Below are positions 22,057 through 25,456 of a stretch of 64,000 nt of DNA, piece after piece. Origin of the DNA: Calothrix anomala FACHB-343 (GTDB lineage Bacteria > Cyanobacteriota > Cyanobacteriia > Cyanobacteriales > Nostocaceae); the NCBI RefSeq assembly GCF_014696435.1, contig NZ_JACJQG010000001.1, positions 62,001 to 126,000 on the forward strand, written 5' to 3'. A model generated the notes under the pieces. That model was not told the origin of the DNA and did not search any database. It worked only from the letters and a program-made list of their open reading frames with translations. How positions within the stretch are numbered: position 1 is the stretch's first letter; each line of letters opens with the position of its first letter. The position numbers and the translations under genes are program-made.

Positions 22057-22701
22057 CTAGGCTGTAACCTTCTTTTTAGCTAAGTTTTGGACTTGTTTTT
22101 TCTTCAAAGCAACTCCCATTCCTAAAGCTGTTACCGATCCTAGAATGGTTAAAGGTTCGGGTACATTAATAGTCATTGAGTAGCTACCTGGTTTTCCACT
22201 AATTTCATTTGCAGTCAAAACCCCTGTACTTACATATTTACCATTTTTGTAAAATGCTCCTAAGAAGTCAAAACCTGCTCTTGTAGTATTTCGAGCTGAG
22301 TTTCTGGTTCTGGTCGCTTCAAATGGGTTATTGATTTTGAAACTTAGAGCGGGGTCACTAGTAAATGTAATGAATGGATTGCTTGATGTCCCTGTATAAT
22401 CGGCTATCGTTCTTGATCCTAAAGTTGTTATATTTGTAGGGTTGGTGAGTTTAACACTCGATACGTTAACCTGTGAATTTAGTGTTAAACCAGAAAACAG
22501 CGCACCACCGAAACTTTCTACTTTACTGTTCTTGAAAAAGATGGTGTCAGTTGTTGGACTCTTCTGACCTCCATTCAAAAAATCGGAAGTTCCAACAATA
22601 TTGAGAAAAGCTGCTTGAGCTGGTGAAACACCGAAAGTGCTACCTACAGCGAAGGCGCTACAAGTTACAGCAATCCCAATGCTGATGGTTTTGAAATTCA
22701 T
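22057..22701 (-). CDS. PEP-CTERM sorting-signal protein
   Basis: 214 residues. The N-terminal signal peptide (ISIGIAVTCSAFAVGSTFGV, then SPAQA cut site) is followed by a beta-rich mature domain. The C terminus has VPEP at about 180, a hydrophobic helix TILGSVTALGMGVAL and a basic tail KKKQVQNLAKKK: the PEP-CTERM tripartite signal handled by an exosortase. The product is expected at the cell surface or in the extracellular matrix. AAAGGAGA lies at proper distance before the ATG at 22701. Many paralogous PEP-CTERM proteins are known from filamentous cyanobacteria; a specific role is not evident. No exosortase gene is in the window. Confidence 0.88.
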   Translation of the reverse strand: MNFKTISIGIAVTCSAFAVGSTFGVSPAQAAFLNIVGTSDFLNGGQKSPTTDTIFFKNSKVESFGGALFSGLTLNSQVNVSSVKLTNPTNITTLGSRTIADYTGTSSNPFITFTSDPALSFKINNPFEATRTRNSARNTTRAGFDFLGAFYKNGKYVSTGVLTANEISGKPGSYSMTINVPEPLTILGSVTALGMGVALKKKQVQNLAKKKVTA

Positions 22702-23380: not shown

Positions 23381-24253
23381 TTAAGCAGCACAAAAAATCG
23401 GGGCTGATTTTAAATTTACCCCGCTTAATTCCGAAATATTTCGCCCAACAGCTGTAGCTAGAGGTTTTAAACTAGCAACCAAATTCACCATATCTTCTAA
23501 AGATAGAGCTTGACGCGCATCGGAAACAGATTGTTCTGGTTCTGGATGACATTCAATAATTAATCCATCTGCACCACAAGCAACAGCTGCTTTAGCCATA
23601 GGTGCGACTAATTCCCGCTTACCAACGGCATGGGATGGATCTACGATTACAGGTAAATGAGTAATTTGCTTGAGAGCGGCTACTGCTCCTAAATCTAAAA
23701 CATTGCGAGTGTAATTATCAAAGCTGCGAATACCTCTTTCGCAGAGTACTACATGGGGATTGCCGTGACTTAAAATATATTCTGCTGCCATGACGAATTC
23801 TTCAATCGTCGCTGCTAGCCCGCGCTTGAGTAATATTGGTTTATTAACTTGTCCTAAAGCTTTGAGTAAATCGAAGTTTTGCATATTTCGGCTACCAACT
23901 TGCAACATATCAGCATGGGCGGCCACTATATCTATTTGGGCAATTGACATAACTTCAGTAACTACTGGTACATTGTAGCGCGATCGCACAGCTGCCAAAA
24001 TTTCTAGCCCGTCTTCTCCCATGCCTTGAAAAGCGTAAGGAGATGTGCGCGGTTTGTAAACACCGCCACGCAAGGCTTGTACAGGTGCAGCTGCTAACTT
24101 TTGGGCTACAGTCTCCATTTGCTCTAAACTTTCTACCGTACAAGGGCCACCAATAATAACAATTTCTTCACCGCCAAAGCTGACTGTTTCGGAAATTTTA
24201 ACAATTGTTTTGTGGCTGGTGTGGGATTGTGCAGCGAGTTGAGCATGAATCAT
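23381..24253 (-). CDS. aroF: 3-deoxy-7-phosphoheptulonate (DAHP) synthase, type I-beta
   Basis: 290 residues. It condenses phosphoenolpyruvate and erythrose 4-phosphate to DAHP, the first step of the shikimate path to Phe, Tyr and Trp. Recognisable family segments: [78 protein letters not shown] and [11 protein letters not shown] (metal- and substrate-binding). There is no extra N-terminal ACT/ferredoxin-like or chorismate mutase domain, so classic allosteric feedback is not obvious. CAAGGAG precedes ATG 24253 at good distance. A terminator ends about 42 bp upstream and a short aromatic leader ORF lies before it, so expression is probably controlled by attenuation (see the leader entries). 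Confidence 0.95.
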
Positions 24254-24294
24254 GGGAAATTCTCCTTGTAATTAGTTATCAGTGTGAGTGGGCT

Positions 24295-24333
24295 AATAAA
24301 AAAGCCCGGAATCTCGTTTTGAGAGTTCCGGGC
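24295..24333 (-). terminator. Attenuator terminator directly upstream of aroF
   Basis: On the aroF strand: GCCCGGAACTCTC, loop AAAAC, GAGATTCCGGGC, then TTTTTTATT. The stem has one bulged C. It lies between the leader ORF and aroF, so it must be bypassed for aroF to be transcribed. Its 5' arm (24325-24332) is complementary over 8 bases to 24365-24372 at the end of the leader ORF. Confidence 0.88.
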
Positions 24334-24361
24334 GCGTTCTGAATCATCGACATGACGCTAT

Positions 24362-24430
24362 CTACCCGGAACTTGCTCTGGGCCAAAAGTAAAAACCATA
24401 AAACCAGCTACCGAAATAGATCGCGATCAT
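24362..24430 (-). CDS. Aromatic-rich leader peptide of the aroF attenuator
   Basis: A 22-codon ORF, ATG at 24430 and TAG at 24362-24364. AGGAG (24437-24441) stands six bases before the ATG. Nine of 22 residues are aromatic: Tyr5, Phe6, Trp9, Phe10, Tyr11, Phe13, Tyr14, Phe15, Trp16; the C terminus is P-R-A-S-S-G. Such density just upstream of a terminator and of the first enzyme of aromatic amino acid synthesis fits a ribosome-stalling sensor. Ribosomes that stall at codons 9-16 would leave GTTCCGGG (24365-24372) free to pair with the terminator's 5' arm and allow aroF transcription. Ribosomes reaching the TAG cover that segment, and the terminator forms. The mechanism is inferred; the elements are seen directly. 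Confidence 0.85.
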   Translation of the reverse strand: MIAIYFGSWFYGFYFWPRASSG

Positions 24431-24441
24431 AAAAAGCTCCT

Positions 24442-24475
24442 AAAAAACAAAAACCGCAGAGTTTGCTCTGCGGTT
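24442..24475 (-). terminator. Second, upstream terminator in the aroF leader
   Basis: On the aroF strand: AACCGCAGAG, loop CAAA, CTCTGCGGTT, then TTTGTTTTTT. A perfect 10-bp stem with a T-run, placed just before the leader ORF's ribosome binding site. It would end transcripts before the leader peptide unless the competing helix with 24512-24523 forms. Confidence 0.85.
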
Positions 24476-24523
24476 CACCGGGCGGTTTCCATTAGGAAAC
24501 TGTATTCACCGCCGGTGAACCGC
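24470..24523 (-). promoter_or_regulatory. Alternative RNA helix competing with the upstream terminator
   Basis: 24512-24523 (GCGGTTCACCGG on the aroF strand) is a perfect 12-bp complement of 24470-24481 (CCGGTGAACCGC). The second arm overlaps the 5' arm of the terminator at 24466-24475, so the two helices exclude each other. Inside lies a small hairpin, GTTTCC-TAAT-GGAAAC (24485-24500), with a GGCGGT/ACCGCC helix next to it. This is antiterminator geometry, possibly a riboswitch or protein-binding leader. Confidence 0.65.
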
Positions 24524-24623
24524 CTTTTGCCAAAAATAAAAGTAAGATTTGCTGTTGAACATTTTTAGGGCACGCAACTAGATAATATTTGATGTAAATC
24601 AATGTAAACCTTATATAGAATCC

Positions 24624-24652
24624 ACGATAACAGACACAGTTGGCGGCGTCAA
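24624..24652 (-). promoter_or_regulatory. Candidate sigma-70-type promoter of the aroF leader
   Basis: TTGACG (24647-24652), 17-bp spacer, TATCGT (24624-24629), read on the aroF strand. The start of transcription would fall near 24617, about 95 bases before the first leader helix. The -35 is good and the -10 is weak; TATATAAGG just downstream is an alternative. Confidence 0.4.
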
Positions 24653-24714
24653 TACCTCCACAACTCTCAAAAAAGGGTTAAACTCAGTACTATTGCGCCA
24701 ACTAAGACGGTTTC

Positions 24715-24810
24715 CTAGGTTGAAAATAGGGTTGACTGTTGACTGTTGACTGTTGACTGTTGACTCTTAAGAGAGATTTTCATGCTGGGTTGTGGGATTT
24801 TCCCGTGATT
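24715..24810. repeat. Dispersed repeat copy A with embedded TTGACTG heptads
   Basis: A flank GGTTGAAAATAGG, five TTGACTG units, then GAGAGATTTTCATG, GGTTGTGGGATTTTC and CGTGA. The same flanks recur at 27053-27228 (twice) and 34612-34684 with other or fewer heptads. Confidence 0.75.
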
Positions 24811-24964: not shown

Positions 24965-25456
24965 ATGATGCCTCGCTCCAAACTTTTAGCCACATCTTTC
25001 GACTATCAAGGAGTTTACCCTTGCCCGGTTTGTCGTGTTGGTAAGATTACTCACATGCCATTAATGGAAGCAGTGGCTTGTGACTTTTGTCAAGAAATTT
25101 TTACTGTGAACCTCGAACAACAGCAAATCAAAATGGCTTCTCGTCAACCTCCCTTGATTTGGCGTTGGAATGGTTTTAGCTGGACAGAAGCTCAGTTAGA
25201 AGGGGTGGAACTTGGCTGGGGCTATGGTTTGGCAGCTATTGCTTTCATACTATTACCCACAACTTTGATTGGCATTATAGCTTACAATTTTCCGCCAACT
25301 CCCCATCAATTTATTACTTGGGTTCCATATATCTGGACTATATTGACTTTTTTGTTACATTTAGCAATTATTCTTTGGATTGTGATTGAAGTTTATCAAA
25401 TTCCCGTCACAGCATATTTAAGAGCGATAAATCGCTGGAGAAGTAGACAAATGTAG
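24965..25456 (+). CDS. Conserved membrane protein with N-terminal zinc ribbon
   Basis: 163 residues. Residues about 19-42 carry CPVCRVG and CDFCQE, a zinc-ribbon pair. A loop follows with PPLIWRWNGFSWTEAQL, then two membrane helices (about 90-110, GLAAIAFILLPTTLIGIIAY; and about 120-145, WTILTFLLHLAIILWIVIEVY), ending in a basic tail. This looks like a conserved cyanobacterial membrane protein without a known role. No gene is close enough to form an operon. It is transcribed away from aroF. Confidence 0.75.
   Translation: MMPRSKLLATSFDYQGVYPCPVCRVGKITHMPLMEAVACDFCQEIFTVNLEQQQIKMASRQPPLIWRWNGFSWTEAQLEGVELGWGYGLAAIAFILLPTTLIGIIAYNFPPTPHQFITWVPYIWTILTFLLHLAIILWIVIEVYQIPVTAYLRAINRWRSRQM

Follow-up and report, generated by a model that had tools for sequence, protein, structure and literature searches.

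The aroF gene of Calothrix anomala FACHB-343 is very probably controlled by two ribosome-mediated transcription attenuators placed in series. The DNA that was analysed, referred to here as the window, is a stretch of 64,000 nt (GCF_014696435.1, contig NZ_JACJQG010000001.1, positions 62,001-126,000). At the level of comparative sequence analysis the leader ORFs, a promoter-like sequence, competing helices, a helix at the start of the second unit and the codon content are apparent, and from these we infer the transcription start, the translation of the leaders, ribosome stalling, the amino acid signal and the two-step logic.

Organization of the aroF leader region

The minus strand has two units of one design, flanked by a promoter-like sequence (24652-24624) and aroF (24253-23381). 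The first-pass annotation had proposed a single aromatic leader-peptide attenuator before aroF. For the unit that it described (our unit 2) the proposal is supported, the unit is present in 157/159 distinct orthologous loci (152 with both units and five with unit 2 alone), and the reported details are all right: the 22-codon ORF with Phe 4, Tyr 3 and Trp 2 (24430-24362), AGGAG ahead of it (24441-24437), GTTCCGGG at the stop codon (24372-24365), CCCGGAAC in the 5' arm of the terminator (24332-24325), and the terminator itself, with the hairpin GCCCGGAA (24333-24326)/TTCCGGGC (24311-24304), TTTTTT and then aroF. The single-leader picture was nevertheless incomplete: a second unit directly upstream (unit 1, 24562-24452) had been missed, which makes two consecutive units, and an extra helix lies at the start of unit 2. 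The features are as follows, with the kind of evidence in brackets.

24624-24652, minus strand: sigma-70-like promoter sequence, TTGACG 24652-24647, 17-nt spacer, TATCGT 24629-24624
24506-24562, minus strand: leader ORF1, MFNSKSYFYFWQKAVHRR and stop (translation; aromatic run conserved)
24512-24523, minus strand: antiterminator 1, 5' arm GCGGTTCACCGG, within the 3' end of ORF1 (covariation)
24470-24481, minus strand: antiterminator 1, 3' arm CCGGTGAACCGC, its end common to terminator 1 (covariation)
24452-24475, minus strand: terminator 1 hairpin AACCGCAGAG/CTCTGCGGTT, then a T-rich tract to 24442 (hairpin and T-run in 154/154 loci)
24437-24441, minus strand: AGGAG, Shine-Dalgarno-like site of ORF2, directly 3' of the T-tract of terminator 1 (such a motif in 99/153 loci)
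24362-24430, minus strand: leader ORF2, MIAIYFGSWFYGFYFWPRASSG and stop, 22 aa, its start region joining the start helix (translation, conservation)
24364-24373, minus strand: antiterminator 2, 5' arm AGTTCCGGGT, overlapping the ORF2 stop (covariation)
24339-24361, minus strand: post-stop segment able to pair with the ORF2 start region, giving the start helix (permutation test, 73 representatives)
24324-24333, minus strand: antiterminator 2, 3' arm GCCCGGAACT, its first 8 bases being the 5' arm of terminator 2 (covariation)
24298-24333, minus strand: terminator 2, hairpin 24333-24304 and TTTTTT 24303-24298 (148/159 loci)
23381-24253, minus strand: aroF, type I DAHP synthase of 290 aa that lacks the ferredoxin-like domain (domain and structure matches)

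ORF1 of the window has no clear Shine-Dalgarno site. For the antiterminator stretch of unit 2 in the window the fold energy is -22.3 kcal/mol, whereas shuffled copies average -12.2 (z -4.1), and the unit 1 fold (24520-24451) has a z of -6.8.

Several other elements were seen in the window. Upstream of the promoter-like sequence there are five exact repeats of the heptamer GTTGACT (24731-24765), and similar heptamer arrays occur at several window sites. On the opposite strand a 163-aa ORF (24965-25456), which has no NCBIfam match, adjoins the element, and a close relative of this ORF adjoins the element fossil at locus L270 that is described below. The 214-aa ORF at 22057-22701, without a Pfam match, has a VPEP motif and a hydrophobic C-terminal segment, two traits that it shares with PEP-CTERM proteins.

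Conservation among aroF loci

The scan of aroF orthologues combined 80 named loci (the best 80 of 546) with order and phylum genomes and yielded 166 loci that reach 63% identity and have 300 nt or more of upstream sequence, in a set that leans to Nostocales; 159 of them were distinct as judged over the 300 nt before aroF. Three loci at contig edges with less than 300 nt upstream (L007, L014, L021) and all loci below 63% identity to the window AroF were excluded. Both aromatic frames are found in 152/159 distinct loci, unit 2 only in 5/159, unit 1 only in 1/159, and neither in 1/159, where aroF is truncated. Two of the 152 (L058 and L164) were counted by eye after the filter had missed one ORF and were translated afterwards; the ORF2 frame of L164 is not closed by a stop at the arm and continues through the terminator. 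ORF1 was assigned by hand in L092, L129, L169, L173 and L174. Both units are also present in 7/7 loci from families outside the order and inside the class (L165-L167, L172-L175). The conservation of the unit 2 element is well beyond chance.

Upstream of ORF1 the motif TTGAC-N16-20-TANNNT occurs in 141/152 loci (duplicates kept) compared with 4/152 shuffled sequences, with its end most commonly 48 nt ahead of the ORF1 start. The conservation of this promoter-like motif argues against a main transcription start downstream of unit 2.

Leader peptides and codon content

As is usual for attenuators, the putative leader ORFs are short and enriched in codons of the pathway end products, and the gene that follows, coding for DAHP synthase, belongs to the biosynthesis of the amino acids that would be sensed. 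Phe, Tyr and Trp are all present in 149/152 ORF1 and 155/156 ORF2 peptides. The first-pass annotation had called for conservation, among relatives, of the aromatic content and of the pairing. The aromatic content is kept: non-consensus residues at core aromatic positions are still F, Y or W in 107/132 cases (47/55 plus 60/77, at loci with the standard Trp position), and by the genetic code 1/8 of the one-base non-synonymous changes of TTT would be aromatic. The distance from the last Trp to the stop is seven codons in 135/153 unit 1 loci and six in 141/156 unit 2 loci. The type of the ORF2 stop varies (TAA 69, TAG 40, TGA 6; n=115), and ORF1 ends in TGA in 96/96 standard loci. Codon changes between close pairs gave no synonymous excess (530 synonymous versus 1271 not in unit 1, 611 versus 876 in unit 2), hence what speaks for coding is the aromatic identity, the frame and the stop codons.

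Leader peptides of this kind might instead act as arrest peptides, the nascent aromatic chain, perhaps together with a ribosome-bound free aromatic amino acid, stalling translation in place of a shortage of charged tRNA. TnaC is a precedent for an arrest peptide with a free amino acid bound to the ribosome, and the leader peptides are indeed unusually alike across families (e.g., WFYGFYFWPRxSSG). Against this, one aromatic residue often takes the place of another, in the proportion given above, and conservation of the residues past the last Trp, which fall on the antiterminator arm, needs no peptide function; moreover, induction by a free amino acid has the wrong sign for a biosynthetic gene. 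We thus regard arrest peptides as quite improbable. As far as sequence can tell, the codon pattern fits the sensing of charged aromatic tRNAs (any of the three) better than a fixed arrest peptide.

Competing antiterminator and terminator helices

Covariation was assessed in alignments of unit 1 (63 sequences) and unit 2 (77 sequences). The unit 1 alignment took in every one of the 63 representatives drawn from 155; in unit 2 the pick stopped at 80 of 159 available loci (those above L135 left out), of which 77 were aligned (L094, L113 and L118 left out). All four helices (AT1 and AT2 for the antiterminators, T1 and T2 for the terminators) pair in 90-96% of cells, and when the partners are slid by 1-3 columns, 12-61% pair. 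Double-change cells numbered 40 for AT1 (8.2 in shuffled data), 21 for T1 (7.5), 11 for AT2 (2.3) and 30 for T2 (11.6), in shuffle tests that are inflated by the relatedness of the sequences. AT2 slid by +2 gave 16 double-change cells against 11 for AT2 itself, but only 24% of the cells pair when slid in this way. The further pair types were unremarkable for T1 (287/500 shuffles) and within the shuffled range for T2 (66/500), and the AT1 pairs with a change on both sides were reached in 25/500 shuffles. Examples of arm variants in unit 1 are CACTGGG/CCCAGTG or TTCGCC/GGCGAA in place of CACCGGG/CCCGGTG. Cognate and non-cognate duplex energies separated with 0/10000 permutations both for AT1 (42 representatives) and for AT2 (64 representatives).

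A hairpin with a T-run follows the stop in 154/154 unit 1 and 148/159 unit 2 loci, compared with 7 and 2, respectively, in one shuffled copy of each; no terminator was detected in 11 unit 2 loci. Thus an intrinsic terminator with its T-run precedes the structural gene, and, on sequence comparison, antiterminator and terminator appear mutually exclusive through a common arm. The compensatory changes support competing antiterminator and terminator helices in both units; for the unit reported earlier, the predicted conservation of the pairing is borne out in this way.

The start helix of unit 2

The ORF2 start region pairs better with its own post-stop segment (-14.7 kcal/mol) than with non-cognate ones (-11.5 kcal/mol; 0/10000 permutations, 73 representatives), the cognate partner having a median rank of 11 of 73; a mid-ORF control in unit 2 gave 90/10000 permutations and a difference of 0.6. 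When closed, this start helix encloses the antiterminator arm, so that pairing of the arm would need a pseudoknot. In trp leaders the 1:2 helix gives termination as the default when the leader is not translated, and by analogy the start helix would send a unit 2 that no ribosome translates into termination by default. This step is least sure for the window itself, since the helix is shifted there, extending in the fold also into 24362-24372, and receives little weight (1.1 expected pairs in the partition-function fold before the terminator is complete).

In unit 1 there is no strong equivalent of this helix. The corresponding candidate reached 6/10000 permutations, but with a small gap (-12.5 versus -11.7 kcal/mol) and with the unit 2 mid-ORF control standing at 90/10000, and we make no claim for it.

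Proposed mechanism and folding of the switch

According to the mechanism that we propose, RNA polymerase would start about 55 nt upstream of ORF1, and in each unit a ribosome would translate the short peptide rich in Phe, Tyr and Trp. With plentiful charged aromatic tRNAs the ribosome would reach the stop codon and cover the antiterminator arm, allowing the terminator to form. A stall on the aromatic run, with 6-7 codons from the last Trp to the stop, would leave the arm free to pair with the 5' arm of the terminator and so permit read-through. In an untranslated unit 2 the start region would pair with the post-stop segment and enclose the antiterminator arm, favouring termination. Since polymerase would have to clear both checkpoints, the expression level should come close to the two read-through fractions multiplied together.

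The transcript up to the start of the 3' arm of the terminator was folded with an assumed ribosome footprint that reaches, counted from the first base of the A-site codon, 18 nt in the upstream and 12 nt in the downstream direction. When the ribosome sits at the last Trp codon, an expected number of 4 or more antiterminator pairs was predicted in 138/153 unit 1 and 155/156 unit 2 loci. With a ribosome at the stop no antiterminator pairs were left in any locus, which follows from the assumed footprint covering the arm. With no ribosome the antiterminator would form in 150/153 unit 1 loci; free unit 1 RNA thus favours the antiterminator, and an untranslated unit 1 would read through. For unit 2 this also applies in 87/156 loci, among them the window. 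Equilibrium folds of the complete units did not reproduce the switch, the terminator winning with the ribosome on the last Trp in 148/154 unit 1 and 148/156 unit 2 loci. Since equilibrium folding favours the terminator, the model needs co-transcriptional timing, and kinetics must decide between the two structures.

Distribution and origin of the element

Covariance models of unit 1 (R1) and unit 2 (R2) were each built from 34 sequences out of a pick of 48 (L092, L106, L119 and L129 left out), those of R1 coming from Cyanobacteriia only. Both models match the same 24/40 related genomes at E<=1e-14, with one strong match each per genome, and therefore no wider aromatic regulon was found by R1 and R2 in these 40 relatives. 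The element lies beside aroF in 19 of the 24 matched genomes; in one (G527) the contig ends before aroF is reached, and four (G514, G517, G520, G526) were outside this check. Among the genomes that were also searched for AroF, 7/7 with an orthologue have both units and 14/14 without it give no strong match. Weak matches of R1 (G006, G016, G529, contig C52 of G266 and contig C35 of G525) and of R2 (contig C34 of G011) were taken as chance, as were weak R1 matches in five genomes of family f47, where the one locus inspected (L279) has no aroF.

In 292 genomes of the phylum R1 matched below 1e-9 in 29, in 28 of which the match is beside a long aroF match. In the remaining one (G094) protein searches give no AroF orthologue, and at locus L270 (1270-1720, minus strand) unit 1 leads straight into an internal fragment of aroF, with the 3' arm of terminator 1 gone. 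This locus is a fossil of the element, in which terminator 1 has decayed where aroF is broken.

Over 62 loci the further matches of R1 fell at unit 2 in 23/24 cases and those of R2 at unit 1 in 34/36 (counted by reading). These cross-matches, to which the shared aromatic codons contribute, suggest that the units arose by duplication. Such an origin, together with the 6/159 distinct loci that have a single unit, would also suit a scheme in which one unit alone (1 or 2) regulates aroF and the other is a relic of the duplication. Under that scheme, however, it is hard to see why both units keep the ORF, the antiterminator and the terminator with compensatory changes in the same genomes, or why terminator 1 has decayed in the sole locus with a broken aroF; regulation by one unit only is, in our opinion, very improbable. 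A trans-acting protein or a small-molecule aptamer switching the hairpins, with the ORFs incidental, would account for the strong conserved RNA structure and the additional helix in unit 2, but it is extremely improbable in view of the open frames with aromatic-for-aromatic swaps, the variable ORF2 stop type, the fixed spacing to the arm and the lack of any Rfam family match (no gathering-level match in the window, the T-box riboswitch included, and at E up to 10 in 24200-24750 six sub-threshold matches, none a bacterial amino acid leader and nothing credible).

The tandem attenuators favoured here have counterparts in a second class of the phylum, which we take to be Vampirovibrionia, where short aroF also has aromatic leaders. 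R1 matches 18/45 second-class loci (E<=1.8e-7), all of them in family f59 (18/21 of its loci), with a partial match (4e-4) in one further f59 locus, L238; R2 is weaker in this class, with a best match of 6.9e-6. For 18 unit 1 and 17 unit 2 loci of f59 the antiterminator arms match their own partners (0/10000 permutations); a terminator comes after 18/18 stops in unit 1 and 11/17 in unit 2. Families f57 and f63 have single diverged leaders or none, and among L177-L179 a leader is convincing only in L177.

Several loci deserve separate mention. In the second class, unit 2 has no detected terminator in L232, L233, L239, L246, L248 and L250; a second-class unit 2 hairpin without a T-run may act on translation and not on termination. 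In L232 a chorismate mutase/prephenate dehydrogenase gene follows aroF. In L177 (1311-1430) there is a single leader before aroF, MMKRFYYFSFYPNALRC ending at a stop, which lacks Trp and whose end could, as judged by eye, pair with the following hairpin; this is possibly the ancestral one-unit form. In another class, the region roughly 40 nt ahead of the aligned gene start in L212, L213, L215 and L220 holds an aromatic leader (e.g., MKNTRWQNSFYFFYFYGFPVGVVC) with possible alternative hairpins; the gene there is a diverged DAHP synthase-like one with about 30% identity to the L177 AroF.

In a tree of hand-chosen rows (32 Cyanobacteriia, 25 second-class and 12 paralogue) the enzymes of Cyanobacteriia form one side of a branch (98/97) among f59; with its weak root this tree does not separate inheritance from transfer between the classes.

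The AroF enzyme

The window AroF matches DAHP_synth_1 and lacks the ferredoxin-like domain PF18152, as do the aroF products of L232 and L177; both paralogues in the same genome carry this domain. At nine paralogue loci of 52-56% identity (L144-L150, L180, L181) the same scan, over 900 nt, found no aromatic leader. The solved structures among the best AroF matches include those of short enzymes (1zco, 1vs1), which are not known to be feedback-regulated. Given the missing PF18152 and these short matches, RNA control may stand in for allostery at AroF.

A broader scenario, which we offer tentatively and regard as possible, if somewhat on the doubtful side, is that the tandem aromatic attenuator arose when one unit was duplicated before Cyanobacteriia and the second class split, has been kept since, and controls a DAHP synthase that lacks the N-terminal regulatory domain, RNA sensing of all three aromatics replacing allosteric feedback and the second checkpoint being off by default.

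Discussion

In the trpL and pheL attenuators of E. coli a leader ORF is combined with alternative antiterminator and terminator structures, stalling leads to read-through, and the 1:2 helix uses segment 2 itself. The element described here likewise would have a leader ORF with antiterminator and terminator as alternatives, but differs in that the antiterminator arm overlaps the stop codon, the start helix encloses this arm and there are two units. The E. coli attenuators are also mentioned in a review (PMC11802643).

Leader-peptide attenuation at aroF is already known from Corynebacterium and has been proposed in Acholeplasma. For the aroR-aroF attenuator of C. glutamicum the review PMC11802643 cites Neshat et al. 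2014. In the parts of the sources consulted, a leader peptide with Phe-Tyr-Phe precedes the DAHP synthase gene of this species, and aroF transcription is said to rise by stalling under Phe limitation, with Tyr availability having no effect (PMC4046766, PMC11802643). The aromatic leader peptide before a DAHP synthase gene is common to both systems; as far as those parts go, C. glutamicum has one leader with an FYF motif and belongs to a different phylum, whereas here two units contain Phe, Tyr and Trp, and unit 2 also has a start helix. The uORFC-13-1 motif of Acholeplasma aroF, in which a short ORF containing Phe codons is followed by an apparent terminator, is known from 24 representatives in one genus and environmental sequences, and its function is proposed only (PMC8632094, in part). 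Compared by description only, it is similar in the order of Phe-codon ORF, terminator and aroF, but the portion consulted describes one unit and mentions no Tyr/Trp run, in contrast to the two units with Phe, Tyr and Trp found here. The Salmonella mgtCBR leader, according to the part of the paper available to us, resembles ours in holding two short ORFs, which respond to different signals (ATP and proline), whereas in our case two peptide-terminator units have the same residues; that paper contrasts its own leader with one holding two intrinsic terminators (PMC3641672). Among the matches listed in the open literature, with subscription papers and preprints outside the scope, no leader-peptide attenuator from cyanobacteria was found by title and start of the abstract, nor, among the matches listed there, two same-signal peptide-terminator units in series.

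If our interpretation is true, classical ribosome-mediated attenuation enters the oxygenic cyanobacteria, where the coupling of transcription and translation and the control of the aromatic pathway would become testable directly, and aroF would exemplify a series of two complete units that answer to the same signal. The arrangement suggests a division of labour between a core enzyme controlled by RNA and isozymes possessing the ferredoxin-like domain, and may provide those who produce aromatics in cyanobacteria with a ready-made control element.
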